A stretch of 64,000 nt of DNA. Origin: Clavulina sp. PMI_390 (taxonomy: Eukaryota; Basidiomycota; Agaricomycetes; Cantharellales; Hydnaceae). The stretch lies in assembly GCA_015039315.1 (NCBI GenBank), contig WIDE01000063.1, forward strand, positions 5,326 to 69,325, given 5' to 3'. Under the pieces are notes generated by a model. The model ran no database searches. It was given only the letters and a program-made list of their open reading frames with translations, and had not been told where the DNA came from. This document shows, one piece after another, positions 18,667 to 37,724 of the stretch (within the stretch, counting starts at the first letter, position 1; each line of letters opens with the position of its first letter). Both the position numbers and the translations under genes were made by a program.

Positions 18667-20345
18667 ATGAAAACATCAATTTCTCTTGCAGCGGCCCTCA
18701 CTCTGTTCGCTTCAAGAGCTCACCGAGCGAGAGCGCACTACACCTTCCCATACATTGTAGACGCATCAGGAACTGAGAGTGCCGCATGGCAGTACATACG
18801 CGAGACCCAGAACTACGAGACCCAGAACCCAGTAAGAGAGTTCAGATTACCTTGATATCTCAAAACTCATCAGTTTGTTGGCTACATCATCGCTGTTAGC
18901 TAACCGACGTCACTGATCCTCTATTTCGATGCTACGAGAACAACACGGCAGCTCAGACTAGCACGATTACCCTGGCAGCGGGCGGTACCTACAGCTTCAT
19001 TGCAGACAACACTATCTACCATCCAGGAGTACGCGTAGTACCTCTTAATTATATTTCATTGATTCTCAACATTTTGTTCCTGCAGTACCTGGATGTTTAC
19101 ATGGGTTCCGTCTCTGACGCAACAAGTGAAAGCGCCGGGGACGGGAGTGTCTGGTTCAAGATATTCGAAGATGCACCTGTCTATGACGCCGACGTTGAAG
19201 GGTTCTATATCTTCCCTTCGCAAACTACATCCAACGTGACCTTCAAAATTCCAAGCGCGACACCCTCAGGTCAGTAGTCCAGAGTAGACCTTGGTGTCAC
19301 GAGTGTTGACCAGTCAAGCAGGTTCGTACCTGATTCGGGTCGAGCAAATCGCACTTCACGTAGCGTCGGTTTATGGTGGCGCCCAATTCTATATCGCTTG
19401 CGCCGAAGTTGAGGTGCGCTCGATTATTCGTTTAGGTTTTGGTACCGACTAACCTAGCTAACCAGGTTACGGGCGGAGGTAGCGGCAGTCCAGGACCTCT
19501 TGTAGCTATTCCAGGGGTGTACACTGGCTATGAGCCAGGTATTCTCATTAGTCAGTCACCTAGCCAGCTGGTCTACATAGCGCAGGGATTTACAGCGACT
19601 TTCATCTTCCAGACATCTACGAAGCTAATCCCAATGGAACCTATATTTCTCGTACGTCTTCTTTGTCACCCTGGATTCGGCTCATCACGTACTGACTTTG
19701 GCATACTATATTAGCTGGACCCGCTGTCTGGACTGGGTAAGTCGACTCCTGTCTCTCTTTACGAGAAGATCTGATCAACGTTAACTGCGGTCAATCAACA
19801 CGTTGTCTGGCTTCTGGTTTGATACTATTCATCAGTGTAAGCAATTGAAATACTTCTTGTCTTCAGTATACTGACGTTTCAACCGTAACCACAGTCTGGA
19901 TCCACTGGGACAGGGACTACTACTACCACTACCACCAAGGTTTCGAGTACCACCACCAAGGCTACGAGTACCAGCACTACATCCAAGGCTTCATCCAGGT
20001 AGGTTACGTCCTCTGAGACTGCCACCTTCGCAAGCAGCTCGATCATAACATACGAAACATTGAATCCCTGTTGGATTGCTCGCAACCAGTAGCACTACAG
20101 TGAAGACCACATCAACGACCACGTCCACCAGTGCAGCAAGCACAGCGACCGGCACCGTCGCCGAGTACGGGCAATGCGGTGGTACGTCGCCTTATTATAT
20201 TGATACTTATCGGACAACTCATAGCTATGCTCGCTGCCACTGGATCCATTGTGTCGTTGTAGGCATCGGCTACACAGGTTCTACCATCTGCGCGTCACCC
20301 TATACTTGCACATACTCGAACGCTTATTACTCTCAGTGCCTGTAA
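18667..20345 (+). CDS. AA9 lytic polysaccharide monooxygenase with C-terminal CBM1 (array copy 1)
   Basis: Secreted copper enzyme that oxidatively cuts cellulose or related glucans. A 23-residue signal ends in RARA, placing His at mature position 1 (HYTFP), the first copper ligand. The second ligand is His in IYHPG at the end of exon 2 (18900-19028). The motif H-x8-Q-x-Y is intact in [15 protein letters not shown], giving the axial Tyr. After PAVWTG comes a Ser/Thr/Lys linker and a CBM1 beginning EYGQCGG and ending AYYSQCL, with its four cysteines. Gly-Gly of QCGG precedes an intron inside the CBM1. About ten introns are needed, and the linker frame requires the single base 19836 as an exon. 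This copy differs most from the others (for example a [10 protein letters not shown] segment) and lacks the distal upstream module. Confidence 0.9.
19836..19836 (+). other. Predicted 1-nt exon, AA9 copy 1 (T)
   Basis: The upstream exon ends ACTGG at 19736, in phase 2. The next clear linker exon starts TCTGG at 19895, in phase 0. One extra base is required, and T at 19836 sits in ATCAG-T-GTAAGC. It completes a GGT glycine codon. Introns are 99 and 58 nt. Confidence 0.65.
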
Positions 20346-21749
20346 TTCTTTTGGTTAACGTGAAAGGGCCTTTAAATAGCATTTGTGTAAAGTTTGCTTC
20401 TTCTGCAATGAATTTGAGCTTTCGTCCAGGTGTCTATTTTCTTCGAACACTGATGTTCTTACCCCGCTTGGCTCCTCAACTCGGTGATGATTGGACTTAC
20501 GACATGGTACTTAATGGGTCGAGGCTGATGTGATATGTCATCTACAAGGCTCTGATCGAGCGAGAGAGACGGGAAAATCGCCCCTATGAGTTCTTCCGCA
20601 GCGAAGTGCAGAACCACTCTTGGTGTTGGTCTTAATTACAGCGAAATCTGAACATTTTGACATTTTGCATTATGGGCTGATCAGAAACCAAAACTCGGAA
20701 TTCCTTATTGATAGCACTTGATGCCAAGTATGAGCAGTAGAGTTTGAGTAACAGGATAACGAGCTGTGGAGATCGTCTTCACTTCCCACGCCCTCGTTGT
20801 AAATAAATCGAAACTGTCTCTTCTTGGATCATCTGAGGTCCTTTCTTGATACCTTCCTCACTACACTCGTCAGAACGACAGCGAACATCAATCTCTGATA
20901 ATTGTGATCAAACGAGTGTTGCCCCAACTTCCAAACTCATTAGCCTCACTCAATGGATCCTGCAAAGCAGACAATAGTATCGCCTCTGGAAGCAGAACCA
21001 GAAGCTTGCGGATGTAATTCGCTTACGCCGCTCATTGGCCCCGCATCTTCATCGCATCATAGCTCTGTGTTCTTTCGACCAGTCGAAGGTCTTTGTTAAC
21101 GTCAAAGGCAGGGCTTGCAGAACGCTTCAACGGGAAGCCAGCCAGTAGATCCAGACTCTTGGCCACCGGCTAGAATGGGATCCCCACGGCGCTGAAGCTG
21201 CAGTTTTGGGACCACGAGGAAGACACCAGCTAGTATCGCCGGCGCCCTGCCTGCTTTCGTAAGATGATCAGCTTCATCCGATCGCCGGATGTGGTCTCGC
21301 TAACCCCATTGGTTGTTCCGTTGAGGTACCATCGGCTGAACGAGTACTTTACGTCTCGATTATTAAACGATTAGTTGCAATGTTGGAAAGTATCCCGGGT
21401 GCCTCTAATTATGGCGTCCGACCCGGGCTTGGTATTCCTCACAATGGTCGTGTGGTTTTGTGTGAAGAGCTGACGCATAGCATCGATCCTGATTGCCCTC
21501 TTCCCCGTAAGATCTCTCCGATATTTTGGGAGCTTGATATTGTCGGACCGATCGCTTCAATTTCAAATATCTAAATTTCATGGAATGAAGCTTCTCTCGG
21601 TGAATTGTGTGGCGAATGCCAAGCCGAAAGCCATTTTTATCACAGTCACAAGGCACGCCTACGGAAACGACAATATCCAGGGGCCTTTCAAAGGGCTGGC
21701 TGTACGGTTGTTCGATACACGTACTTGATTACAGGCTTCGTGCCGTCAC
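20346..21749. other. Intergenic between AA9 copies 1 and 2, with repeat-unit DNA
   Basis: No gene seen. Around 20785 lies CTTCCCACGCCCTCGTTGT, found again near 24457 and 29270, each about 1-1.5 kb before the next AA9 gene. It marks the far upstream part of the duplicated unit. The 140-bp upstream module of copy 2 is at 21491-21630. Confidence 0.6.
21491..21630 (+). repeat. Distal upstream module of AA9 copies 2-5 (copy 2)
   Basis: A block from GATTGCCCTCTTCCCC to GGCGAATGCCAAGCCGAAAG lies about 340-370 bp before the start codon. Equivalent blocks stand before copies 3, 4 and 5, but none was seen before copy 1. Confidence 0.7.
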
Positions 21750-21775
21750 TGTCCGACGATGCTCCCAAGTTTTGG
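21750..21775 (+). promoter_or_regulatory. AA9 promoter box, copy 2
   Basis: Same GCTCCCAAGTTTTGGCG core as copy 1, followed by CTCTGACTTATAACCACAC, which carries a TATA-like TTATAA. The ATG lies 83 bp further. CCCCAC at 21822-21827 fits the CreA/Cre1 carbon-catabolite repressor consensus (SYGGRG on the other strand), so glucose repression is possible. Confidence 0.7.
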
Positions 21776-21858
21776 CGCTCTGACTTATAACCACACGTCG
21801 ATTTTGATTTAGCCCTACCACCCCCACACAGGTTTTTTTTTCACGCCCTCTAGTCGTC

Positions 21859-23487
21859 ATGAAGTCCTTCTTCTCTTACACAACTGCCACTTTACTCGCT
21901 CTGAGCGCTCATGTGGCGAGAGGGCATTACACATTCCCTGATTTCCAGGGCGATGCGGCCTCGGTTGCTGATTGGCAATATGTCCGCATGACACAAAATC
22001 ACTACTCGCAAGGGCCCGTAAGTAAACGAGCTGTTTGTCAATCGATACCGTTCAGCTCACAATTGTTACCATCTAGGTTACTGATGTTACCGACCCTCTG
22101 TTGCGCTGCTATGAGAACGATACCGCCTCTGCCACCAGCACAACTACTGCCACTGCAGGAAACACTTACAGTTTTGGGGCGGACCAAGCAATCTATCATC
22201 CCGGCGTGAGTACATCGATTTTGAGACTCGATAAGGTAACCGATGTATTGGGCTTTAGTACACTGCTGTTTACATGGCTCAAGTGTCGGACTTGACGAGT
22301 GAGAGCGCAGGAGATGGCTCCGTGTGGTTCAAGATATTCGAAGATGCTCCGGTCTATGATGCCTCCCTCTCGGACTTCTACGTCTTTCCCGATGAGACCG
22401 CCACAAGTGTGACCTTCACCATCCCCAAGGCTCTCCCTTCAGGTTGGTTTTTCACGATGCCATATGCCCAGGGCTATGAATAATTCTGCAATACAGGCAA
22501 CTACTTGATCCGGGTCGAGCAAATCGCTCTCCACGTCGCCTCATCCTATGGAGGAGCTCAATTCTACATCGGCTGTGCCCAAGTTCAGGTGCGTTTTATT
22601 CACTCAGGCTCGCTTGCTTCAGTTCTCGTGCTTACTGATGGGCACATCAGGTGACTGGCGGAGGAAGCGGTTCCCCAAGCCCTCTTGTCGCAATCCCAGG
22701 AGTTTATACCGGCTATGAGCCCGGGATTCTTATTAGTAGGTTGCGGTCTGCTGGCTACACTGCTGATACTGAGGTTGACCTCTATCAATAGATATCTATG
22801 AGGCCAACCCCAATGGAACCTACATCTCCCGTGAGTTGCTTTCGAAACTCGAAGGTACCGTACGCTGACACAGTCACCTCACTAATCAGCCGGCCCCGCT
22901 GTCTGGACTGGGTAAGTTTGGCACCATTGCTCAAATTTGGACCTCATCTCACAAAATATGGCAAATCAATAAACCTCACATCTCGGGTCCGTGACTGTTT
23001 ATTAGAGTAAGTGATACGCCCGCTGGTCGCCTTTACGATATTGAATTCCCAATTCATGTAGTCTGGCTCAACTGGCGGTTCATCTACGACTACTGCCAAA
23101 ACTTCGTCCACGTGAGCCAATTTTTCACCCCTTGGGAAATTGCGGCTCACCATTGAAACGCATCTTACTGGGATTGTATTCAAATAGCACGGCAAAGACT
23201 ACTTCTAGTAGCACCACCGCAAAGACGAGCACTACCACCTTAAAGACTACTGCTACCTCCACGACCTCTAGTGCGTCCAGCACGGCGACTGGCACTGTAG
23301 CTGAGTATGGCCAGTGTGGTGGTATGTCCCCTTCCAGCTTTATTCTCTACATCAATTCACTCAAAACTATCTTCTTTTACCTTTTTGTGATCGCGGCCCC
23401 TCAGGAATTGGCTATACGGGCTCTACCGTCTGCGCGTCACCCTATACTTGCACTTACTCGAATGCTTATTACTCCCAGTGCTTGTAA
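21859..23487 (+). CDS. AA9 lytic polysaccharide monooxygenase with CBM1 (array copy 2)
   Basis: The 22-residue signal ends ARG before His1 (HYTFPDF). The second copper His is in IYHPG at the end of exon 2. After the next intron comes [16 protein letters not shown] and a [12 protein letters not shown] core. The Q-x-Y motif stands in [15 protein letters not shown]. The end of the domain is PGPAVWTG. A long Thr/Ser/Lys linker carries repeated TTAKT-like units before the CBM1 (EYGQCGG, then [15 protein letters not shown], then AYYSQCL). All copper ligands and CBM1 cysteines are present, so the enzyme looks functional. It shares its promoter box with the other copies and its flanks with copies 3-5. 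Confidence 0.92.
23006..23006 (+). other. Predicted 1-nt exon, AA9 copy 2 (A)
   Basis: ATTAG-A-GTAAGT. The preceding exon ends ACTGG at 22911 and the next exon starts TCTGG at 23062. The base completes a GGA glycine codon and restores the Ser/Thr linker frame. Introns are 94 and 55 nt. Confidence 0.65.
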
Positions 23488-25877
23488 TTTCTCCTGTTAG
23501 CAGTTAGCTAGGTCAGAGCGCTAGGGCGCTCATAAGTTCTCTTTCTACAGCCTGCATTCGGGTTTACTTGTTTGGTTCATTTTTCGTGGGTCAGTATCCA
23601 CTGTATTGTTTAGTCGGGGGTCCAATATTTCCCTCGTGTAATTGAGCGTGACCTCTTTTGGAGCTTTACTGACCAGATTTCACTAGTTGTCCGAGTCTGT
23701 GCCGACGCAACGCCAAGAAAATTTCAACCGAATGGGTGCCGAAGCGACCTGAGTGGAAGAGTGAATTGTCACGACATAGTCCTCCTGCATCACTTGACTC
23801 TGTGCTATATTGAGACCAATCGGAATGACCGCCATCTCGGCAACCCCAGCTTGAAATTATGAAGGTTCGTACCGGGAATCGGAGTAATGACCGGTACGCT
23901 TCTCCGTGCCACCTGTCCGAATTCTCGTCATCATCGCCTCATCACAGGCTCAACGATCTCGCAATGTCATTGAACTCCCTGCAATAGCCTCCGCTAAGTG
24001 CCAAATGAATTAGGAGCAGTATTAATGTTTTGATGTTAATGCCACGACGGAAAGAACCCATAATTTAAGGATGAAGATGCGCGTAGGCGGAGGAGGAATG
24101 AAGACATTGTGGCTGTTGAGCTCACGACTCTTGCGTCGAAGCTGCAACTCTGGTTGGAAGGCGGGCAATGGCAGTCTTCGCAACGGAGGATGGTGGATTG
24201 GGTGATGGATGCTTATTTGTCGCCTTACTTACGGATGCCCCCTCGAGACCCTGAGACATACAGGCCAAACCTTGCGAGATGGCTCGCAGGGTTCCGAAAT
24301 CTGTATTACTGTGTAGCCTAGTACAGGTTTAGATATAGGGTCTGGGCATCCGGCTCCGAATACACACCTCCTCCTCCTCCTATCAGCCCTGGTTTGGACA
24401 TGAGGTCTCGGCGACCGGCTCCGAATAAACTCCCCAAAATCCGTTTGTGGGGTACTTCCCACGCTCTCGTTGTCAACATCCCTAAACTATCGCTCGCTGG
24501 ATTTACCTGGCGTCCTACTCTTGGTGCTGAACTTGATAGGGCTGTGAACATCAATATCTGGAAGGGGAAATCAAACTCGGGGTGCCACTCTCCGCCAAGC
24601 TAATTAGTCGCATCAAATGATCTCCGCGAAGCAGACGATACCATCGCTTCCAAGGGCAGCACAGAAGGTTGCGGACTCAATCGCTTATCTCACTCATTCG
24701 CCCTTAATATTGATCTCACTGCGATTCTATAGTTGTTTCTATGAAGGCCTGCATTAACCGGCCTCGTGGAACATAGTCACTCAGTCAGCGATTGGTACGT
24801 CAGATCTTTTTCTTAATCGGGGCTCACTGACGCCTGCAGGTCATCTTTCGCAAAACCACCTTTCAATAACGTCTTCTTTCCCCCAACTGGTTTGGAGTAT
24901 CAATCACCATCCTAAAGGGCCATTACTCCCTACTACCGAAGGGGATGATAATTACCAATTGTCGGTGGGATGCTTCAGTGACTCCGTTAAATTTTATTAT
25001 TTGATATGCTTTGTCCTTGGATCTCAACATTCTCCTTCAGCCATTTCGATAGGCTTATCACACGACGCCAAAGAAGAAGCTACTGAGATCCTTTATCTGA
25101 CCTTCGTCACTACATCTGCAGAAATATTGTAGAAGAAGATCAACTCTCATCCTTGAGCCCATGCGGTATTGCAAGCTGTGAGACTGGTTCTGTGAGCCCT
25201 CTGGGACCAAGAGGCTTCAAACAGCATTGTTAGACCCTAAGAGGAAGCTCGTTACCAGTTTCATGCTAGCTATGTATACCAGGGCGTTCATCAAAAAGTT
25301 GGAGTTATAAACTTCGTCGGCAAGAGGGGTTGCGACTATCAAGAAGGGTTAATATGCACATGTAGCCGGTTCATTTGCCAATTATGCACTAGAATATTCT
25401 GCCATGTGCTGACCGTCTTCCCAGGGTCCCAAGATCGCGAAGTTCTTCAATGATAGGAGATCCTCCCTCCCGGCATGGGTGTTCAAAGTTGCAGGGCCGA
25501 GCCACCTTTGATCCCATTGGCTGATGTGTTGAAGTGCCATCAGCTGAGCACGTAGAATACTTCCGGGTGCCTCGAATTATGTCGTTTGGCCGGGCTTGGT
25601 ATTCCTCGCCATCGCATGGAGTTCATCTTGACTACCCACTTCCCCGTACATCTTTCCGAGATTTGGATTCGCTTGATATTGTCTGGCCGATCGCCTCAAT
25701 TTTAATCTCTAAATTCCATGGAAGATTCGCCCGGTCAATGGTGTGGCGAATGCCAAGCCGAACAGTCTCTTGGCGACAGTCAAAGGCATAGCGACGGAGA
25801 TGTCAGTATCCAGGAGGCTCTCCAGGGCTACTTGTCTGGTAGATCAATCCCCACATTTATATATGGCTTCTCGACTG
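23488..25877. other. Intergenic between AA9 copies 2 and 3
   Basis: No intact gene seen. The 3' flank matches that of copy 3 for several hundred bases. The GH16 relic found behind copies 3 and 4 was not recognised here, suggesting a deletion. At 24348-24428 the phrase CCGGCTCCGAATA occurs twice about 54 bp apart within a short local duplication. The upstream module of copy 3 is at 25631-25764. Confidence 0.55.
25631..25764 (+). repeat. Distal upstream module of AA9 copies 2-5 (copy 3)
   Basis: Diverged but clearly alignable to the copy 2 block: CTTCCCCGTA, CTTGATATTGTC, CGATCGCCTCAATTT and GTGGCGAATGCCAAGCCGAA occur in the same order. Confidence 0.65.
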
Positions 25878-25903
25878 TCCGACGATGCTCCCAAATTTTG
25901 GCG
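25878..25903 (+). promoter_or_regulatory. AA9 promoter box, copy 3
   Basis: Reads GCTCCCAAATTTTGGCG, one base different from the other copies. Here the dyad becomes a perfect CCAAA-T-TTTGG palindrome. TTATAA follows at about 25911, and CCCCAC (CreA-like) at 25946-25951 just before the gap. Confidence 0.7.
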
Positions 25904-25952
25904 CGCTAACTTATAACCAGAACTTGTCTCGATTCAACTCCACTCCCCCACA

Positions 25953-26486
25953 NNNNNNNNNNNNNNNNNNNNNNNNNNNNNNNNNNNNNNNNNNNNNNNN
26001 NNNNNNNNNNNNNNNNNNNNNNNNNNNNNNNNNNNNNNNNNNNNNNNNNNNNNNNNNNNNNNNNNNNNNNNNNNNNNNNNNNNNNNNNNNNNNNNNNNNN
26101 NNNNNNNNNNNNNNNNNNNNNNNNNNNNNNNNNNNNNNNNNNNNNNNNNNNNNNNNNNNNNNNNNNNNNNNNNNNNNNNNNNNNNNNNNNNNNNNNNNNN
26201 NNNNNNNNNNNNNNNNNNNNNNNNNNNNNNNNNNNNNNNNNNNNNNNNNNNNNNNNNNNNNNNNNNNNNNNNNNNNNNNNNNNNNNNNNNNNNNNNNNNN
26301 NNNNNNNNNNNNNNNNNNNNNNNNNNNNNNNNNNNNNNNNNNNNNNNNNNNNNNNNNNNNNNNNNNNNNNNNNNNNNNNNNNNNNNNNNNNNNNNNNNNN
26401 NNNNNNNNNNNNNNNNNNNNNNNNNNNNNNNNNNNNNNNNNNNNNNNNNNNNNNNNNNNNNNNNNNNNNNNNNNNNNNNNNNNNNN
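25953..26486. other. Assembly gap (534 N)
   Basis: The gap removes the start, signal peptide and first two exons of AA9 copy 3. The distance from promoter box to the first visible exon (about 609 bp) nearly equals that in copies 2 and 4 (about 632 and 640 bp). The gap size is therefore realistic and an intact 5' end is likely. Near-identical tandem copies probably caused it. Confidence 0.95.
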
Positions 26487-27587
26487 ATCTTCCCGGATGA
26501 GACCGCCACAAGTGTGACCTTCACCATCCCCAAGGCTCTTCCCTCAGGTCAATTGTTCGCGATGCCGTATGCCCAGGGCTCTGACTAAGCCTGCAATACA
26601 GGAAAGTATTTGGTCCGTGTAGAACAAATCGCTCTCCATGTGGCCTCATCCTTTGGAGGCGCTCAGTTCTACATCGGTTGCGCTCAGGTTCAGGTGCGTT
26701 TTGCTCACTTTGGCCCGTTTGGTCCAGCCCTCGCACTTGCTGAACGGCAGACTAGGTGAATGGGGGAGGAAGCGGTTCTCCAGGCCCTCTTGTGGCGATC
26801 CCAGGAGTTTACACTGGAAACGAGCCTGGCATCCTGATTAGTAGGTTAAAAGCTGCTGGAGCCGTGATGGGTCTTGACATGCAACTGTGCCAATAGATAT
26901 CTACGCAGCTAATCCAAACGGAGCCTACATCTCTCGTGCGTCCTTTTCCCGTATCACGTAACGGACCACATGATTCACACCGGCTTCTTGACAGCTGGCC
27001 CTGCTGTTTGGACTGGGTAAGTCACCATTGTAGTTTTGATTCTGCAGTTTTGATCATAACATATAACAAACTTATGAAAATCCTCTGTTGTTGCGGCCCA
27101 CGAATGCTTTTTAGGGTGAGTGATAAAAATATCTTTCTGTTTTCTATTACTCAAGTGTCCTGTGCTTGCAGTCTGGCTCGAGCGGGACTGGAACTACGAC
27201 TGCCAAAACCACGTGAGCTATTCCGACGTTTCCTTTCTTCAGGCCGGACAAAACTGACCATATGATCGGATTCTCCTTATGGGGGCCCAATCAAACTCGC
27301 TAAAAGTAGTACTACGGCTAAGACTACTAGCACCACGGTAAAAACTAGTACCACCACGTCAAAGACGACCTCCAGCGCGTCCAGCCCTACAACCGGCACT
27401 GTCGCTGAGTACGGGCAATGCGGCGGTATGTCGCCTTGCCGCTGTGAGAATCGATTAATAGACTAACAATTACTTTCAACCTTCTCGTCATTGTGTCGCT
27501 GTAGGGATTGGCTACACCGGCTCTACTGTTTGCGCTTCGCCATACACTTGCACCTATTCGAATGCTTACTACTCTCAGTGCTTGTAG
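26487..27587 (+). CDS. AA9 lytic polysaccharide monooxygenase with CBM1 (array copy 3, 5' part in assembly gap)
   Basis: The visible part starts within the domain at [20 protein letters not shown] and continues to the copper-site motif in [15 protein letters not shown], then [19 protein letters not shown] and AVWTG. The linker is shorter than in copy 2. The CBM1 ([29 protein letters not shown]) ends with TAG at 27585-27587. Mature His1 and the second His lie in the gap and cannot be checked. From copy spacing, the start codon should be near 25980. Everything visible is open and splices like the other copies. Confidence 0.85.
27115..27115 (+). other. Predicted 1-nt exon, AA9 copy 3 (G)
   Basis: TTTAG-G-GTGAGT. 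The upstream exon ends ACTGG at 27016 and the next starts TCTGG at 27172. The base gives GGG glycine. Introns are 98 and 56 nt. Confidence 0.65.
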
Positions 27588-28269
27588 TTTTCTTGTTAGC
27601 GGTTAGCCAGGTCAGAGTGCTAGGGCGCTCATAACTTTTCTTCTCAGCCTGGATTCGGAGTTCCTTTTTGTTCAATTTTTGTGGGGTTCTAACCGTTGTA
27701 TCCACTAGTTTGAATGTACGCTACCCGCCTAATGGAATTTGGCGTGACCTGTTCCGGAGCCTCGTCGTCGTAATATCGCTGGCGGTCCGAGTCTATCCCG
27801 AGACAACGCCAAGACAATCTTGGCTAACAGATATGGAAGCCGGGCCCTATAAGAATGAATGCTTGCAACAGAGTCCTATGCATCACTTGACTCTGTTCTA
27901 AATACGGAATCAATCAGAATGATTGCCCTCTTCGCATTTTCAGTTCGAAGTCACAACTTTCCGCGTCGGGACTCGGAGTAGTGGCCGATTTGCTTCTCCG
28001 TGCCACCTGTCGAACGTGCTCATAATCACCCTCACGTAACAGGCCCAAGTATCCTGGCACTATTGCTAAAAGGCTCCATGCGATAGCCTTTGCCCGGTTC
28101 CAAAGCGAGCTAAGTATAGCAGTATTGTTTTGCTTCTGATAGTACGACGAAGAGAATGCGTGATTTGAAAATGAAGCTGGGAAGGAGTGATGGACCTCCT
28201 GGATTCAACCACCATGTCGTAAACATCCGAGCCTGAGATATTGTTTTACAGGAGACTCTGTTTCGTCGA
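27588..28269. other. Shared 3' flank of AA9 copy 3
   Basis: No gene seen. The sequence aligns by eye with the DNA downstream of copies 2, 4 and 5, including GAGTGCTAGGGCGCTCATAA shortly after the stop. Confidence 0.55.
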
Positions 28270-28575
28270 TCAACACTGTACACAAGCACCTTTGAATGTA
28301 GCCATCGCGCGCGAGGAAGAAGAAGATCAGTTAATCCTTAGCCCGCTCAGACGTACTCTCCAGTGAGTCGGTATCCACGATGCCAAGCTGCACCCATGGA
28401 GTGAAAGGGGTAGTGGCGTCTGCAATTTTCTTTGTTTTAGATACCAAATCTCCACGTCAGAAGCGTCTGAGAAGCCGGATAATACTGAGGCGCATAGAAG
28501 GATCTTAGCCCAATTGACACGTCTTCCGTTGACACTCAAGATGATACGATCGGCGTTCCAGTCATTTCTGTAAAT
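28270..28575 (-). pseudogene. GH16 relic behind AA9 copy 3
   Basis: On the minus strand the phrase ACTGGAACGCCGATCGTATC translates to a remnant of the TIDWNADRI block of GH16, followed by VNGRRVN. Further on is CAGCTTGGCATCGTGG and a degraded TSERAKD, matching VQLGIWD and TSEWAKG of the larger copy at 38373-39470. The frame is broken several times and no start or catalytic site remains. It is a dead fragment that marks the repeat unit. Confidence 0.6.
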
Positions 28576-30664
28576 TAGAAGACGTCTAAGTGATAGCGAT
28601 CTACTGGGAGGGGGCTAAAGCCCTCCGAAGACTCGGTATCAAAGTTTCTTTGTCTAGGCTGAGTCGATAGTAGCTACCACCTGGGATATGTTCAGATGCA
28701 AGCTCGATTGCCAAATGCATATATATAGGCATAGTAGTTTCTAATCCTTAGTTCCTTCTTCCATCCCGATGGGTCCTAGCCCAGATTCCAAGAGGATACA
28801 AGGAAAGCACCATGCATCGGGACGAGGATAGTTTAGTACCAGCTTAGTGATAGAAGTGAGATTTGGAATCTATTGTAGACAGCTTCAAGGCCCAGCATGG
28901 CGAGCACGAGCAAAACAGTGGATAGATGTGTAAAAGTGGACGGCACCAGTGCAGCGCTCAGCGCTGCTTTCTATTTAGCAGGACCAGATTTCACTAGCGT
29001 ATGAATTATCGACGACTTTCGAACAGAGACCCACAAGTTCAGTTCAGATACATGCCTCTGTTGTGTCTGAGGACGTAACCTCTGTCATCATCACGTCGCC
29101 ATGCCACTGGCATGGGATAGGAATTGGCCCCAAAGGAGCTCTTCATTTATCTTTTACGCAGGTTAATGCATTAAGGTGGCGCAGGGACGAGAATTCAAGG
29201 TACAAGGGCCATGAGGAACCTGGTCACATATTAGGAAACAATTTGCCGACAACCTTCGTATTGTCCGGGACTCCCACGCCCTCGTTGTCAACAACTCGAG
29301 ACTGTCTCTCGTCGGAATAATCGCGGGTCCCTCTCTTATCACCTTGCTCACTACACTCAATAGGATACCAATACCTAATGCGCGCAATCAAACCAGGGAT
29401 TTCACTGTCCGGCAAGCTTATTAGCCTCACTTAATGAACTCCGTGAAGCAGATAGCTAGATGGTAGCATCGCGTCGAGAAGCGAGACCAAGAGATGGCAG
29501 ATGTAATCGATTGCGCCGCCCATTGGCCCCTATTCTTCATTGCCTTGCATTTTATGTCGACTCCGTTGGATGATGGTTCATGCCAACATCAATCCTAGTC
29601 TCGAGAGCTTAGCTATTCAACGACTGGTACGTCTCAGGCCCCTAGCTACTGGCCAACATAGGATAGCCGCAGTGCTGACGATATATAAGAAAATAGGAAA
29701 TATTACAGTAATCTGGTGTCGCTAGTTCCCCGCCCTTTCAGAGATTCCTTAATCTCATCCGTTCATCGAATGTGGTCTCATGGAAGGGGGCTTGCTAACG
29801 CAATTGAAACACACCGGCACTTCGCGAGATTAACTTCGAGGAGTACCCTATAATGGCTTCAAGCATTCAGCGCCATCCTAAAGGGGATATTATGCAGTCA
29901 ATTCAATCCGCCGAAGGCCCGACGATTATCACCGATCGTCGATGTTTTTCTTGGCTCTCTCCCCCAAGTCTGATGAGGAACTTATAGAGCCTGGGATCTC
30001 TACTCCACATGCTTCGCATTTACTTCCCGACCATTCCACCTCGGGAACGAATGATCTCCTTGACCAGCACCATGCATTCCAACGATCTCCTTCAACCGTT
30101 TGGGTGGGCGGAGCACACAAAGCTGAAGAATTCATCGATATATCTTATCTGATATTTTTCAGTGCATCTGAAGGTGTGAGGTAGGAAGAGATGAGATCTA
30201 ATCATCAATCATATCTAGTGTTGCCGGTTTTGAGGCTGGCCATGTAAGCTCGCCATGTGGAGAATCTCGGATACGATATCGCCCAACGCTAGAAATTCCT
30301 ATTCCTAGCTTCGTCCTCGCTATCCTAAGCCAGTTCGCCCATCAATAGTCGGGAGTTACAAACTCCATCGGCAAGAGTGGTCATGGCTTGGCTTTGTGAA
30401 GGTTTAGCACATGGCTTTGATCCTGATTGCGCTCTTTCCCCATACCATCCCTCCGAGATTTGCAGCCGTTTGATACTGTCTGGACGATCAAATCAATTTC
30501 AAATCTTCAAACTCCATGGAGTGAAGCTTTGCTCGGTGATTTGTGCGACGAATGCCAAGCCACATTGATGAAGATCACAAGGATGTTTAACTAGCCTACG
30601 ATATACAGGGGGCTTGTGACGCAGATTGACGCCTTTATTTGATTTTGGACCTCTAAAGTCAGCG
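28576..30664. other. Intergenic between GH16 relic and AA9 copy 4
   Basis: No gene seen. The block 29855-30180 aligns with 35080-35400 before copy 5 (shared GCCATCCTAAAG/GCCGCCCTAAAG and TCAATTCAATC landmarks) and more loosely with 24890-25150 before copy 3. It is therefore part of the duplicated unit. The upstream module of copy 4 is at 30425-30563. Confidence 0.55.
30425..30563 (+). repeat. Distal upstream module of AA9 copies 2-5 (copy 4)
   Basis: Same order of landmarks as copy 2: GATTGCGCTCTTTCCCC, TTTGATACTGTCTGG, CAATTTCAAATC and GACGAATGCCAAGCC. Confidence 0.65.
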
Positions 30665-30690
30665 TCCGACGATGCCCCCAAGTTTTGGCG
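30665..30690 (+). promoter_or_regulatory. AA9 promoter box, copy 4
   Basis: Reads GCCCCCAAGTTTTGGCG, then CTCTGTTTTATAATC with a TATA-like stretch. The ATG follows 75 bp later. Two CreA-like CCCCAC sites lie at 30725-30730 and 30732-30737. Confidence 0.7.
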
Positions 30691-30765
30691 CTCTGTTTTA
30701 TAATCACACCTCGCTTTGATGCAGCCCCACTCCCCACATAGGTTGTTCTCACTCCTTCGCTCCCC

Positions 30766-32382
30766 ATGAAGTCCTCCTTGCCTCCTACCACCGCCTTCTT
30801 GCTGGCTCTAACGGCACATGTTGCAAGGGGACATTACACTTTCCCCGACTTCAAGGGAGATGCGTCCTCGGTTGCTGACTGGCAATATGTCCGCCAGACA
30901 CAGAACTACAACTCACAGGCGCCGGTAAGCCAGGCGAATCTTAACAGCTAAATCATCTCCAATTGGTAGCCGTTAACTTTAGGTAACGGATGTCACGAGC
31001 CCCCTGTTGCGCTGCTACGAAAGCAATACGGCTTCCACTACTAGCACAACCACCGTAACAGCAGGAAACACTTACGTCTTTGGGGCAGATCAAGCAATTT
31101 ATCACCCTGGTGTGAGTGAAGCGATCCGTAATATCCTGCTTCTATAGGTTGTAACGAGTGCGATGGATTCAAGTACTTTGCGGTTTATATGGCTGCAGCA
31201 TCGGACTTGACAAGCGAAAGCGCCGGAGATGGTTCTGTCTGGTTCAAGATTTATGAAGATGCTCCCGTATATGCCCCCTCCGGCTCGAAATTCTATAATT
31301 TCCCGAGTGAAACTGCGACAAGCGTGACCTTCACCATCCCCAAGGCTCTTCCTTCAGGTTGGTCCTTCTTGATGTCGCATGATTAAGCCTCTGACTAAAT
31401 TGATCATACAGGTAACTACTTGATCCGCGTGGAACAAATCGCTCTGCATGTTGCTTCGTCCTTCGGAGGCGCCCAGTTCTACATCGGCTGCGCTCAAGTT
31501 AAGGTGCATCTTGATCACTCAGGCTCGCTTGCTTTACTCCTCGTGCCTGCTGACAGGTAGCAAAGGTGACTGGCGGGGGAAGCGGTACTCCAGGCCCCCT
31601 TGTTGCGATCCCAGGAGTGTATACCGGCAACGAGCCTGGTATCCTGATTAGTGGGTTATAAACACTAGAGAGCTTGCTGATAATGACATGGGGCTCTGTA
31701 AATAGATATCTATCAGACTAATCCCAACGGCGCCTACATCTCTCGTACGTTCTTTTCTCATGCCATGGACAAGATCTCACCACTCACGCCATCTTCTTAT
31801 CAGCTGGCCCTCCTGTATGGACTGGGTAAGCCACCACTGTAGCTTCAGTCCTGAATTCTAATTATCGTACAACAACCTTATGGTGGTCCTCTGTTATTTT
31901 GGGCTGTGAATGCTTCTTAGAGTGGGTGACAAATATATCTTTTCGTTTTATATTACTAAAACGTTCTGTGCTTGCAGTCTGGCTCAAGTGGGACTGGATC
32001 CACGACTTCCAAAACCACGTGAGCCCATCCGAACCCTTCTTTCCTTATGATATGTAATTTGACCGTCCCCTTGTTTTCTCCTCTTGGGGATACAACCAAA
32101 CCCATGATTGTAGTACTACTCCTAAGACTTCTAGCACCACATCAAAAACCACTGCCACCTCCACAACTAGCGGCGCATCCAGCACAGCAACCGGTACTGT
32201 AGCCGAGTATGGGCAATGCGGCGGTATGTCACTTTACCAACTTGACCGTATATCGATTACCTCACGGCTTGTATCGTTTTTGTCATCGTGTCGCTGCAGG
32301 AATCGGCTACACGGGCCCTACTGTCTGTGTGTCTCCCTACAAGTGCACTTATTCGAGCGCCTACTACTCTCAGTGCTTGTGA
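30766..32382 (+). CDS. AA9 lytic polysaccharide monooxygenase with CBM1 (array copy 4)
   Basis: Signal of 22 residues (ending VARG), then HYTFPDFKG with copper His1. IYHPG supplies the second His, and [15 protein letters not shown] the Gln and Tyr. This copy has its own surface segment, [16 protein letters not shown], where copies 2 and 5 read YDAS. The domain ends GPPVWTG. The linker is Thr/Ser/Lys-rich. The CBM1 belongs to the GPTVC type ([23 protein letters not shown]), shared with copy 5 and different from GST in copies 1-3. TGA at 32380-32382. No lesions seen. Confidence 0.92.
31921..31921 (+). other. Predicted 1-nt exon, AA9 copy 4 (A)
   Basis: CTTAG-A-GTGGGT. The upstream exon ends ACTGG at 31825 and the next starts TCTGG at 31978. 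The base gives GGA glycine. Introns are 95 and 56 nt. Confidence 0.6.
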
Positions 32383-33084
32383 TTTCTCTTATTGGCTGTT
32401 CGCGAGTCAAGATCAGAGTGCTCGGGCAATCATAGCTTCGCTATGGCCTGGGTTCGGAGTCGCTTCTTTTGTTCAATTTTTTGTGGATCAGTGATGATTG
32501 TATCATCTAGCCTGGATGTCCGACGACTGCCTTATGAAATTTGGCGTGGCTTGTTCTGGAGTTTCGTCGTCCTAATGTTGCCGGCTGTCTGAGTCCATTA
32601 GGAACCACGCTAATACAATATTGGCTGAATAGATGCAGAAGCAACTACCTTTCGGTTGAGTTACCTCGTAGTCATTTGCCCCAGTTGACTCCGCCCTAAA
32701 TATGGGTCCAGTTGGGATGATCGCTCTCTTGGCACGTTTAGTTTGAAGTCACAAAGTTCCGTCCCAGGTCTCGGAGGGATAGATAGCGCGCTTCTTCGTG
32801 CTACTTGTCAAACGTGCCCTAAATACTCCATCGTCTTTGCTACTTTGCATGCCGTTCGCAGCGCTGCCAAGGGGTTCTGTTACGGCGGCTTCCAGGTTCT
32901 AAAGCAAACTGACTATCGTAACAACATTGATATGCTATTAGCAACATGAAAAGCTAAGGCGAAACACAAAGATGATTATCAGTGTATGTAAGAGGGAGGA
33001 GGATCGTGGGGAGCGTATAAACTGAACTACTGTAGTCCTACCATCCGCTCTTGAGATATTGTAGAGTTGGTTCATTTCCAATCA
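32383..33084. other. Shared 3' flank of AA9 copy 4
   Basis: No gene seen. It aligns with the 3' flanks of copies 3 and 5 (for example GATCAGAGTGCTCGGG). Confidence 0.5.
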
Positions 33085-33510
33085 GCACTGAACTCAAAGA
33101 CTCTTGAAAGTAGCTATCATGCGCGAGGGCGCAGAAGATCAGTTGATCGGAAGCTTAGCCCAATTAGATGTGCCTTCCAGCAGCCAGCATCCCAGATGCC
33201 AAGCTCCTGAGATGAGAGCGTAGAAATAGCTGCCATTTTCTTGGTTTCAACTAGCATTTATTCGGTCCAGGGACACGAGGGAGGCTATATAATATAAAAG
33301 CGCAGGAAGGAGCTCACAGCGATTGACAGTACGAACAGGGTTTCCATCCACTTCCCAAGTGATGCGATCTACGTTCCAGTCAATTGTGTAGGTGTGAAAG
33401 TCTCCAGGTGATGGTTCTCCTCTGGAATAAAGGTTCAAGGCCGCCCAAACTCCGTATAAATGTTTCGTCACTCCTGGTTGAGTTGCAAAAACGTTCGTCC
33501 AATAGATCGC
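33085..33510 (-). pseudogene. GH16 relic behind AA9 copy 4
   Basis: An open stretch on the minus strand reads YWTNVFATQPGVTKHLYG, then FHTYTIDWNVDRITWEVDG and VRTVNRC before a GTGAGC donor. This is the central part of a GH16 glucan hydrolase or transglycosylase, close to the copy at 38373-39470. The catalytic E-x-D-x-E segment, signal peptide and first half are missing. The last exon is degraded but recognisable. It is a 5'-truncated pseudogene, convergent with AA9 copy 4. Confidence 0.75.
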
Positions 33511-34086
33511 CTGGGCGCGGCGGGTTTCGGCGGGCTGCTTGGCATGAATCAAGAGCCTGAAGCCGCCATTCACTTTCGAAAGGTGGTCGGATATGAAACA
33601 ATCGGGGACTTGGCGCTTGTCGCCGCTACCGATGAACGACTCGAAACTGTCTCAACGGTCCCTTGTGGGACCCATCCTACCATCACCCTCAACAAATTCG
33701 ATAAGACATTGGACGTTGGTATGTGGCCTGTGTTGTCAAACCGGGGATATCACTATTAGCTAGGCAACTTAGCTTCACTCGGTGGGCTCCGCCGGGCGGC
33801 CGGCCTGAGTTGATAACATCGCTTCTAGAAGCGGGACAAGAAGCTTACGGATGCTTATGCCAACCCCCCGGAACGCAACCACCCAGTGTTTGGGATGTCT
33901 GAGGCTTCCAGCCACCGGCTACCACGAGACAGCCGTCGTGCTGACGAGATAGTGTTAGGATGACGAGACAGCTTTACAGTAAATTGATATCGGCGAGCCC
34001 CTGCCTCTTTCGGAGGGCGATCGATCTCGTCTGTTCGTCGGATATAATCTCATGCAGGGAGCTCGATAACGCAACTGACGCATATA
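33511..34086. other. Intergenic, no gene seen
   Basis: Sequence between the GH16 relic and the inserted element. It retains scattered similarity to the upstream flanks of copies 2-4 (for example CGACTCGAAACTGTCTC near 33640 against CAACTCGAGACTGTCTC near 29293). Confidence 0.4.
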
Positions 34087-35019
34087 CAGGGTTAAACCAC
34101 TCAACGGCAAACCGACACTCAACGGCACAAACCGTCCTCGCGCTACAACTAGGCATGAGAATATTTTTCAAAAATCTGTAGTAGATAGAGCTACTATCTA
34201 TGCATTGACGAACCAGGTTTCAAGTCAATGCAGCCTGTGCTCACCGCTTGACGCCGTTGTCAATAGCCAAATTCATTGATTTGCCGCCACCCTGTTCTAA
34301 CATGTCGGTTTATCCACCCAATATCGCGCATATGGACTGAGAATTTCCCATAATGTATTGTGAGCTTGCCATGAGAGCACTTCTCGCAATTCTAGCCACA
34401 GGACATAACATGGTCTAAGACAGAGAAAAGCTACTCACCAAGCGTGACAGATCAGTCATGCTGCCAAACACGTTATCTCACTTATGAGAACTTTCTACAT
34501 GCTATTGCCTGCAGATATGAGGTATGAACAAGGATTAGGAGGGTAGGGATGTTATCCCTAGCAGTCCAATATGATTTGGAACACAGCAAAGGGTGATCAC
34601 GAAGGTCAAAATAGCGTGACACAAGGAGAAGGATTGCGGCCAAGTGATACAATAGAGGATGCTACTTGATCTCCATAATGACATTAAATTGCAACCATCT
34701 CAGCTATTAGGCGAATTTATGTGAACTGCTTGAGTTGGACAATAGTAGTAAGGAGGTTTCTTGTCGTGAAGTATGGAATCTGTCACAGTTGTCACGCTGT
34801 GCCGTTGATTGGTTTTGGCTCTCTCACCCTATCCCACGCTCCCAACGACCTTCACCGTCTTCAGCAAGATTCAGGCTACATCTGAATAGCTCCATACTGT
34901 AGGTGTATTCTTAATGCACAGCTATGTAGAAATTTAGGGTGCCATACTGCTTATTGCACCTATCAAAAATCATCTCAGCCAGGGGTTAGATTTTTGTGCC
35001 GTTGAGTGGTTTAACCCTG
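34087..35019. mobile_element. 933-bp non-autonomous DNA transposon with 23-bp terminal inverted repeats
   Basis: Both ends carry CAGGGTTAAACCACTCAACG plus GCA, a perfect 23-bp inverted repeat (34087-34109 and 34997-35019). TA stands directly outside on both sides (34085-34086 and 35020-35021), as for elements that insert at TA. The left end has a second partial copy, ACTCAACGGCAC. No transposase frame lies inside. The homologous intergenic sequence upstream of AA9 copy 4 (about 29807) has no such insert, which supports a recent insertion. The superfamily is not settled; TA flanks suggest a Tc1/mariner-like transposase in trans. Confidence 0.8.
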
Positions 35020-35021
35020 TA

Positions 35022-35999
35022 TGCTACATATCACACAGATACCTTCTAGGCGGACCTGCTTTGATTCTTTCTAGGACTAAGCGCCGCCCTAAAGGAGATA
35101 TTGTGTAGTCAATTCAATCTGTCAAAGGCGCGATAATTGTCGCCGATCATTGGTGCCTTCCTTCGGTGGCTCCTCCGAGTCTGATGATGAAGTCACAGAG
35201 CCTAAGCTCTCTGGTCGACATCCTCCACCCTCGCTTCCCGGATATTCTCCCTGGGAAATAAATGATCTTCTTTCCACAGGGGATTGCACCCCAGCAATTT
35301 CCCTCAGCCATTTGGAAGGCATATCGCAGGATGCCAAGAAGCCATCGAGATTTCTTATTTGATGCTTGTCAGTGCATGTGTGGTGGTATTTTAGGAGAAG
35401 ATGAGACCTAATCCTCAATCGCATGCAGTATTGCAGGTTGTAAGACTAGTCGTGTGTGTCCGCAGCGAGGAAGAAGCGTAACATTGTTCAACACCGAAAA
35501 GTTGTTATTACTGGCTTCATCTGAGGTGTATTGAGCTAGTTCGCTCATGGAAAAACGGAGGTGCAAACTCAATTGGCATTCATGATCATCGCCGTCCAAA
35601 AAAGTCAAAGTGGAAGTGCCACAAATGACCTGCAGTATACCTCGGACGAGCACTCAAGACTTTGTTGCGTCCCGGGGACCCTAATTATGGCGTTTAACCC
35701 GGGCTTAGTACTTCTTGCTATCGCTTGGCGTTATGTGAAAGGCTGCCACATGGCTTGGCCCGATTGCCTTCTTTCCCATCCGAGATTTGCAGCCGCTTGA
35801 TATTCACTGGCTTATTACCTCAATTTCAAATATCCAAATCTCCATTGAGCGAAGCTTTGCTCGGTAAATAGGGCGGCAAGCGCCAACCCGAAAAAGCCAC
35901 ATTTGCGACAGCCACGAGCACATAAGCGGAGACGAGAATATTCAGGGCTATGCGGGGTAGATCAGTTTCGGTATTTCATCATAGGTCTCTCAACGTCAC
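35022..35999. other. Upstream flank of AA9 copy 5
   Basis: No gene seen. 35080-35400 aligns with the block before copy 4. Open frames here on either strand (for example 35122-35424) appear to be chance frames in repeat-unit DNA. The 140-bp module lies at 35761-35895. Confidence 0.5.
35761..35895 (+). repeat. Distal upstream module of AA9 copies 2-5 (copy 5)
   Basis: CGATTGCCTTCTTTCCC, CAATTTCAAATATCCAAATC and GCGAAGCTTTGCTCGGT follow in the order seen before copies 2-4, ending with a decayed CGCCAACCCGAAA. Confidence 0.6.
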
Positions 36000-36000
36000 T

Positions 36001-36025
36001 GCCGACGATCCTCCCAAGTTTTGGC
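36001..36025 (+). promoter_or_regulatory. AA9 promoter box, copy 5
   Basis: Reads GATCCTCCCAAGTTTTGGCG, then CTCTGGCTTATAACCACAC as in copy 2. The ATG follows 75 bp later. A CreA-like CCCCAC is at 36059-36064. Confidence 0.7.
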
Positions 36026-36099
36026 GCTCTGGCTTATAACCACACCTCGTTGATTTATCCCCACTCTCCACACAGGCTGTTCTCGTTACTTCGCCAATC

Positions 36100-37724
36100 A
36101 TGAGATCCTTCTTCTCTTCTCCCATCGCAGTCTTATTAGGCTTCAGCGCTAATGTGGCGAGAGGACATTACACTTTCCCTGACTTCAAAGGAGATGCTTC
36201 CTCAGTCGCTGACTGGCAATATGTCCGCATGACGCAAAACCACTATTCTCAGGCACCAGTAAGCCAGGTAAATTTCTTGGCAACTGAACCGTTTAACTGA
36301 CAGTCGCTACTTTTAGGTTACAAGTGTTACGGACCCTCTATTGCGCTGCTACGAGAACGATACGGCTTCAGCCACTAGCATAACCACCGTAACGGCAGGC
36401 AGCCTCTATAGTTTCGGGGCCGACGGACCAATTTATCATCCTGGAGTGAGTGCCGTGATTCAGGGCTGTGTTCCTATGTCGTAATTGATGTAATGAGTTC
36501 TAGTACATTGCTGTTTACATGGCTGCGGCATCGAGTTTGACGAGCGAAAGCGCGGGAGATGGTTCCGTCTGGTTCAAGATCTATGAAGATGCTCCGGTCT
36601 ATGATGCCTCCCTTACAGACTTCTATGTCTTCCCCGATCAAACTGCGACAAGCGTGAACTTCACCATTCCCAAGGCTCTCCCATCAGGTCGGTCCTTCGT
36701 GATATGACACAGTCCAGCCTCCCACTAAATTTGATGATATAGGAAATTACTTGCTCCGTGTTGAGCAAATTGGTCTACATGTTGCCTCATCGTACGGAGG
36801 TGCACAGTTCTACATCGGCTGCGCTCAAGTTCAGGTGTGTTCTTGATTGCCTAGGCTCGTCTTGATTGACTCTTCGTGGTTGCTGATGGGCAAATCAGGT
36901 GACTGGCGGAGGAAGCGGCTCCCCAAGCCCACTTGTGGCGATTCCAGGAGTTTACACTGGATACGAGCCTGGTATCCTGATTAGTACGTCAAAAGCCGCC
37001 AGAGACGTTGCTGGTCTTGACGTGCAAATATGCCAATAGATATCTATGGGCCTAACCCAAACGGAACCTACATCTCTCGTGCGTCCTTTTGCCGCATCAT
37101 GTAACAAACCACATCATTTACGCCGTCTTCTGATTAGCTGGCCCTGCCGTCTGGACTGGGTAAGCCCACCACTGCAGCCCTTGTTATGGAGGTCTGATCA
37201 CCACGTATATCAAAATTTTTGCGATCTTCTGCCCCATCATCCACGAACGCTTCCCAGAGTGAGTGTTAAACATGCTTTTTCTGTTCGTGTTACTCAAACT
37301 TCGATGCTCTCAGTCTGGCTCGAGTGGGAGTGGAACTACAACTGCCAAAACTACGTGAGCTGCTCGGGTGATTGCTTCCCTTAGAATAGACGAATTGACT
37401 ATCCGACCATTTTCTCCTCCTGGGGATTCAACCACATTCACTAAATTTAGCACTACCGCAAAGACGAGCACCACCACGTCGAAGACCACGGTCACCTCCA
37501 CCACCAGCAGTGCATCCAGCACGGCAACTGGTACTGTCGCCGAGTACGGGCAATGCGGCGGTACGTTGTCTTCCAACTTGGTCGCGTATACATTGGCTCA
37601 TAACTACCTTATTGTGTTGTTTTATCACGGTGCCACCACAGGAATTGGCTACACGGGCCCTACTGTTTGTGCGTCTCCATATAAGTGCACGTACTCGAGT
37701 GCCTACTACTCCCAATGCTTGTGA
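36100..37724 (+). CDS. AA9 lytic polysaccharide monooxygenase with CBM1 (array copy 5)
   Basis: Signal MRSFFSS...ANVARG of 22 residues, then HYTFPDFKG with His1. [10 protein letters not shown] carries the second His, and [15 protein letters not shown] the Gln and Tyr. The usual Ile-Ala of this motif is Ile-Gly here. [16 protein letters not shown] follows the second His as in copy 4. The domain ends PAVWTG. A Thr/Ser/Lys linker and a CBM1 of the GPTVC type ([14 protein letters not shown]) complete the protein. TGA at 37722-37724. Complete and apparently functional. It converges with the damaged GH16 gene 650 bp downstream. Confidence 0.92.
37258..37258 (+). other. Predicted 1-nt exon, AA9 copy 5 (A)
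   Basis: CCCAG-A-GTGAGT. The upstream exon ends ACTGG at 37159 and the next starts TCTGG at 37314. The base gives GGA glycine. Introns are 98 and 55 nt. Confidence 0.65.

Follow-up and report, generated by a model that had tools for sequence, protein, structure and literature searches.

A window of 64,000 nt from the basidiomycete Clavulina sp. PMI_390 (contig WIDE01000063.1, positions 5,326 to 69,325 of the forward strand) contains five copies (c1 to c5) of a gene for an AA9 protein with a C-terminal CBM1. In these genes the Ser/Thr linker and the CBM1 are very probably joined to the AA9 catalytic domain via an exon of one nucleotide. The predicted product is a secreted AA9 lytic polysaccharide monooxygenase (LPMO) with linker and CBM1. 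Two GT-AG introns, A (phase 2, 88–99 nt) and B (phase 0, 55–58 nt), would lie on either side of one base, the third of the last glycine codon in the catalytic domain (GG-N). Since only one base separates the acceptor of A from the donor of B, simultaneous use of the two sites is unlikely, and the introns would be recognised by intron definition and spliced out successively. Since the base is four-fold degenerate, its identity would be free to drift, with only the length of the exon fixed at one: it is T, A, G, A, and A in c1 to c5, T in L009, and A in L012, two further loci of the same genome. The search that covered the genome (39.4 Mb in 301 contigs) gave 51 exon-level matches to the AA9 profile. 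A GPAVWTG codon pattern was found at nine places, but misses c4 (GPPVWTG) and L010 (WKG). The comparisons below use a seven-locus set of c1 to c5, L009, and L012; L013, which is near-identical to L012, was left out.

All junctions of the window lie on the forward strand, and the donors (GTAAG), single bases, and linker starts listed by an earlier sequence-only reading were confirmed throughout by reading the sequence. In c1, intron A (GTAAGT...CAG, 99 nt) occupies 19737..19835, the exon is the T at 19836, third base of the glycine codon, and intron B (GTAAGC...CAG, 58 nt) occupies 19837..19894, after which the linker exon starts with TCTGG at 19895. The corresponding features of c2 are an intron A of 94 nt (22912..23005), an A at 23006, an intron B of 55 nt (23007..23061), and TCTGG from 23062. 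In c3, intron A has 98 nt (27017..27114), the base is a G at 27115, intron B has 56 nt (27116..27171), and TCTGG begins at 27172. For c4 the values are 95 nt (31826..31920), A at 31921, 56 nt (31922..31977), and TCTGG from 31978, and for c5 98 nt (37160..37257), A at 37258, 55 nt (37259..37313), and TCTGG from 37314. The AG-N-GT site reported 94–99 nt past the donor and 55–58 nt before the linker exon is thus present in five of five copies, and the base varies as expected for a silent third position of glycine.

In all seven loci a single base lies between AG and GT and leaves introns of 88–99 and 55–58 nt. With this base the junction reads PAVWTG-SGS (PPVWTG-SGS in c4), and without it the linker frame is lost in the five copies. 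The claim that exactly one base is needed holds on this count, although one alternative with a weak donor, discussed below, is also in frame. The peptide GWLNWR, given earlier for direct joining in c2, was incorrect, as the in-frame direct join reads WTGLAQLAV; the argument is unaffected. Taken as one intron, the gap would measure 145–158 nt, whereas the remaining introns of the window copies, 38 in number, measure 52–96 nt; these introns also supplied the reference donors and acceptors and, coming from the same genes, form a small and non-independent set. The longest other intron of L009 has 99 nt. The motif AG-N-GTRRG with at least about 45 nt on each side occurs exactly once per locus in all seven loci, and in 0–0.4% of 2000 dinucleotide shuffles per locus.

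Conservation around the base was only partly as described before. Pairwise identity among the seven loci, anchored on N, is 0.71 from N to +5 and 0.60 from −6 to −1, compared with 0.21–0.37 at −60 to −25 and 0.21–0.38 at +6 to +59 in the rest of intron A, so that the contrast drawn by the sequence-only reading stands for the immediate surroundings of N. However, positions −24 to −7 of intron A (0.42–0.60) and intron B (0.43–0.58) are intermediate. Invariant positions within 30 nt of N are −7, −2, −1, +1, +2, +5, +26, and +27. A further test is independent of the reading frame: from position 46 of intron A to its terminal AG (41–52 nt) no AG was seen in any of the seven loci, as against 14.55 expected from composition, while GA, for which the expectation is equal, occurs 12 times in the same stretches. 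Such an AG-free stretch is the trace left by a used acceptor, owing to 3′ splice site scanning.

Once the one-base exon is included, c1, c2, c4, and c5 can each be read through 11 exons, from ATG to stop, without interruption of the frame. The genes lie on the forward strand at 18667..20345 (c1, 331 aa), 21859..23487 (c2, 325 aa), 30766..32382 (c4, 314 aa), and 36100..37724 (c5, 314 aa). Of c3 only the 3′ part (26487..27587, forward strand) can be checked, because an N-run at 25953–26486 covers its 5′ part. The catalytic exons measure 159 (165 in c1), 129, 184, 92, 85, 39, and 22 nt and are followed by the 1-nt exon and then by the linker and CBM1 exons. The exon preceding the single base is thus itself very short, with 22 nt in all five copies (19715–19736, 22890–22911, 26995–27016, 31804–31825, and 37138–37159). 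The four complete copies match PF03443 (AA9) with 158.7–176.2 bits (cut-off 27.8) and, at the C-terminus, PF00734 (CBM_1) with 48.2–51.3 bits (cut-off 20.6). By eye, HYTFP follows the hydrophobic start. Its histidine, the putative N-terminus after signal cleavage, is matched in the alignment of c2 by residue 1 of chain 4b5q. This family-61 protein D is the best solved-structure match of c2; its source is given in record P0079 as Phanerodontia chrysosporium, and its chain ends at GPAVWQG.

The CBM1 itself (38 codons) is very probably translated. Among the seven loci its nonsynonymous divergence (dN) is 0–0.11, while synonymous divergence (dS) reaches 1.23 between c1 and c2, 1.43 between c1 and c3, and 2.28 between c2 and c3, lies beyond correction for four pairs involving L009, and is lowest, at 0.37, between c4 and L012; the dS estimates are rough, with about 28 silent sites each. 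A dN so far below a high dS reflects strong purifying selection on the encoded module. The same silent divergence means that unconstrained intron sequence should share little in the deep pairs.

Splice solutions for the seven loci were enumerated from GT or GC donors and AG acceptors, with introns of at least 40 nt and inner exons of at most 59 nt, and from single AT-AC introns. They fall into 45 classes, only two of which work in all seven loci. One is the one-base exon; among the solutions found, it alone works in all seven with the conserved donor GTAAG together with the acceptor of the linker exon. The other is a single intron of 156–169 nt that extends to the linker from a GT 11 nt before GTAAG, in the valine codon (GCN or CCT|GTNTGG); N would then be intronic and the protein would read ...GP(A/P)-SGS. 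A GC donor 3 nt further upstream (14 nt before GTAAG) is likewise in frame in six of the seven loci, but absent in c4. The valine-codon GT, however, scores below all 38 reference donors in every locus, either donor would delete the VWTG whose VW is kept by relatives, and the invariant GTAAG, the AG-N-GTRRG motif, and the AG-free stretch would be left unexplained. We therefore regard this single intron as highly improbable.

A second possibility is that the proteins truly end at the GGG TAA inside donor A and that the CBM1 exons are untranslated leftovers. Two public records end in this way: P0001 (c2) and P0002 (c4) stop at residue 237 with PAVWTG and PPVWTG, respectively. Retention of intron A yields just such a CBM1-less protein of 237–239 aa in all four complete copies, and the solved AA9 chains 4b5q and 7exk both terminate at GPAVWQG. 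Leftovers would, however, decay at the divergence seen here, whereas the CBM1 is open in all seven loci with dN far below dS; dead CBM1 exons were rejected on these grounds, and we consider it very unlikely that the short form is the only product. Taken together, the public records are compatible with more than one reading. One record is 100% identical to c2; P0013 (c1), P0004 (c5), and P0016 (L009) end elsewhere, before the junction; P0012 (L010) and P0011 (L011) have no CBM1, as in the genome; and no record for c3 or L012 is among the matches listed, which are the best 120 of 1049. A junction-centred protein search (24 matches) listed two Clavulina records, neither with CBM1. These CBM1-less records are what a predictor unable to place a one-base exon would give, and a real short isoform would look alike. 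Skipping of the base, in turn, would produce a frameshifted tail in the four complete copies, which in c5 meets no stop before the joined exons end.

Two other explanations have still less to recommend them. If GTAAG were joined to an AG that lies 11 nt into the linker exon, the frame would be kept in c3, c4, c5, and L012, but this acceptor is unavailable in c1, c2, and L009, so that close paralogs would need separate mechanisms, and it scores below all 38 reference acceptors while lying 11 nt after a better one; we give it hardly any credence. Equally implausible is that one base modulo 3 comes from a microexon of greater length or from some other, non-canonical pair of splice sites: such solutions occur in up to four loci, but none within the pairs enumerated is common to all seven. 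Finally, a stwintron, in which, as described for fungi, two successive introns are removed consecutively, would resemble the AA9 junction, but there one intron interrupts a splice element of the other and no coding base is left (PMC5639578, PMC12403724), whereas the frame here needs one, and this candidate was rejected.

A number of observations weigh against the one-base exon. Firstly, AG-N-GT on its own, spaced so that two introns fit, occurs in 4.7–15.3% of 2000 dinucleotide shuffles per locus; because it is so common by chance, the case depends on the donor consensus and on the site lying at the same place in each locus. Moreover, the loci are related paralogs and hence not independent trials, and c3, c4, c5, and L012 are close to each other (CBM1 dS 0.37–1.03). 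Secondly, several splice sites are weak. Scored with its two exon-side bases, acceptor A falls at the 0–3% quantile of the 38 references in c1, c2, c4, c5, and L012 (26–34% in c3 and L009), and its intron part alone is still at 3–5% in c4, c5, and L012 (24–79% in c1 to c3 and L009). Among the donors, that of intron A in L009 lies at the 3% quantile, and that of intron B in c1 at 5% even once A is removed. A full branch-point motif (CTRAY) is present in 12 of the 38 reference introns but in none of the seven introns A, and in c3 intron B lacks even a four-of-five match to it. Thirdly, all seven Clavulina sp. PMI_390 records among the matches listed are without CBM1, including five from loci that have one. 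Lastly, the predicted junction is not the usual one among the relatives fetched: 52 of these proteins continue for nine residues or more beyond GPxVW, and 38 of them read WP at this place. GPAVWTGSG followed by linker and CBM1 is found in three of the 52 (P0009, P0034 from Mycena belliarum, and P0043 from Roridomyces roridus), and the predicted junction is therefore a natural, though uncommon, protein sequence. As to the order of events at the proposed one-base exon, donor B gains 2.8–2.9 bits after removal of A in all seven loci. This gain would fit a removal of A first and B second, but it reflects the same AG to GG change each time and is thus one change seen seven times.

L009 shows the same AA9-CBM1 arrangement and site (GTAAGG...CAACAG-T-GTAAGT...CACAG), with a linker that starts with ACAACT, and so does L012, with A as the single base. 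L012 and L013 carry the same AA9-CBM1 gene on two contigs, with 96.8% identity over 2313 nt, and are perhaps two alleles assembled apart. In contrast, L010 (GGG TGA), L011 (GGA TAG), and L024 (GGC TGA) have a stop right after the same glycine; no CBM1 was detected in these three paralogs, nor was AG-N-GTRRG found in the 400 nt that follow. The proposal of the sequence-only reading that the CBM1 would depend on a one-base exon is supported jointly by frame, enumeration, and paralogs. In a different AA9 subfamily, represented by four AA9-CBM1 genes at L020 and L021 (contig C89), inspection by eye shows an ordinary single intron from ...FTC to the linker, with no one-base exon. The CBM1 of the L020/L021 genes is very similar to that of the window genes, and its internal intron has the same position, also by eye.

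A catalytic-domain tree of 19 rows, from which c3, L012, L013, and L024 were left out and in which L009 is represented by its trimmed public record, recovers the Clavulina group (7 rows) with 100/100 support. Within it, L009 and L010 are sisters (100/99), L011 groups with this pair (99/96), and c1 joins the three with only 82/80. At what looks like a former donor A, L010 reads GG|GTGAAT, with its TGA stop inside, and L011 reads GG|ATAGAG, which gives GGA TAG. The simplest reading of this small tree is that the one-base junction is old in the group and that L010 and L011 lost the CBM1; the altered donors suggest that they may have done so through loss of splicing.

Donor A (GG|GTAAG) holds the in-frame stop GGG TAA, so failed or delayed splicing of intron A would yield a complete CBM1-less LPMO. 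It is conceivable, though on balance doubtful, that the junction, with its two splicing steps, works as a built-in switch that adds or omits the CBM1 and that L010 and L011 are copies stuck in the off position. The CBM1-less LPMO would then end at the same glycine as the CBM1-less paralogs, and full two-step splicing would give the CBM1 form. Two AA9 forms produced by alternative splicing are reported for an LPMO gene of Gloeophyllum trabeum, and splice-dependent LPMO forms thus have precedent (PMC8615602).

Single-base exons were called very rare, and precedents are indeed few, yet published, so that the AA9 case would not be unprecedented. APC11 of Arabidopsis is described with a one-nucleotide exon and transcript evidence, and, like the AA9 site, it has AG-N-GT between two introns and needs the base for its frame (PMC4674806). 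Substitutions of the base are tolerated in APC11, while the base varies naturally in Clavulina; its authors likewise argue for intron definition and removal in turn (PMC4674806). The same authors point to potato invertase, in which 33% of transcripts skipped an artificial one-base exon and the second intron is said to leave first (cited in PMC4674806). APC11, however, is a single-copy plant gene whose exon was shown by cDNA and constructs (PMC4674806), whereas in Clavulina the predicted one-base exon is situated at a domain junction of a fungal multigene family. A one-nucleotide microexon with transcript evidence is also reported for VPS55 of land plants (PMC8831610, 2022); as in AA9, a conserved donor (GTRAGT) follows the base and the exon is missing from reference annotations, and in Selaginella intron retention gives a second transcript (PMC8831610). 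The VPS55 microexon changes the N-terminus of a membrane protein, whereas the AA9 exon would add or omit a C-terminal CBM1 (PMC8831610). In a mitochondrial gene, placozoan cox1, a single-base exon has been described as well (PMC5436844).

A fungal counterpart is CYP621A of Fusarium, for which a one-nucleotide exon with read support is presented as the first in a fungal gene (PMC12940212). This study counts its case as the second example, although VPS55 had already appeared in 2022 (PMC12940212, PMC8831610). CYP621A shares with AA9 the fungal host, out-of-phase flanking exons, and gene models that are nearly all wrong at the site, and in F. graminearum an apparent intron of 139 nt is split by AG-N-GT (PMC12940212). 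It differs in that its cases are ascomycete orthologs in which the base is always G and the middle base of a glycine codon (PMC12940212). The Clavulina genes are basidiomycete paralogs, and their base, at a silent third position, is T, A, or G.

In recursive splicing AG and GT adjoin. Its stepwise removal is alike, but it concerns very long introns, compared with a gap of 145–158 nt that includes a coding base (PMC13149111). Among the open-access papers listed, judged by title and abstract opening, none describes an exon of one nucleotide for AA9 or for any basidiomycete gene. With APC11, VPS55, and CYP621A, such exons are documented in three nuclear gene families found in that literature, and AA9 would add one to this known but very rare type. 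New here would be a basidiomycete multigene family in which the exon has kept a length of one while the base, at a silent site, has drifted, and which offers a natural series of T, A, and G to probe how the spliceosome handles a one-base exon. Furthermore, annotation can lose a functional module, as the listed LPMO records without CBM1 indicate, which matters when cellulose-binding enzymes are counted per genome. If retention of intron A proves true, splicing efficiency would be tied to the tethering of the enzyme on cellulose.

Besides the junction, the five copies of the window share an element, CCGACGATGCTCCCAAGTTTTGGCG, on their 5′ side (18569, 21753, 25879, 30666, and 36002), which is near-identical despite the high silent divergence and is also present in L013. 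In L009 its core was not found, and the same holds for L012, whose sequence seems to stop within the gene. In the four copies with a visible ATG the element is located 98–106 nt before this codon; it looks like a shared promoter element.

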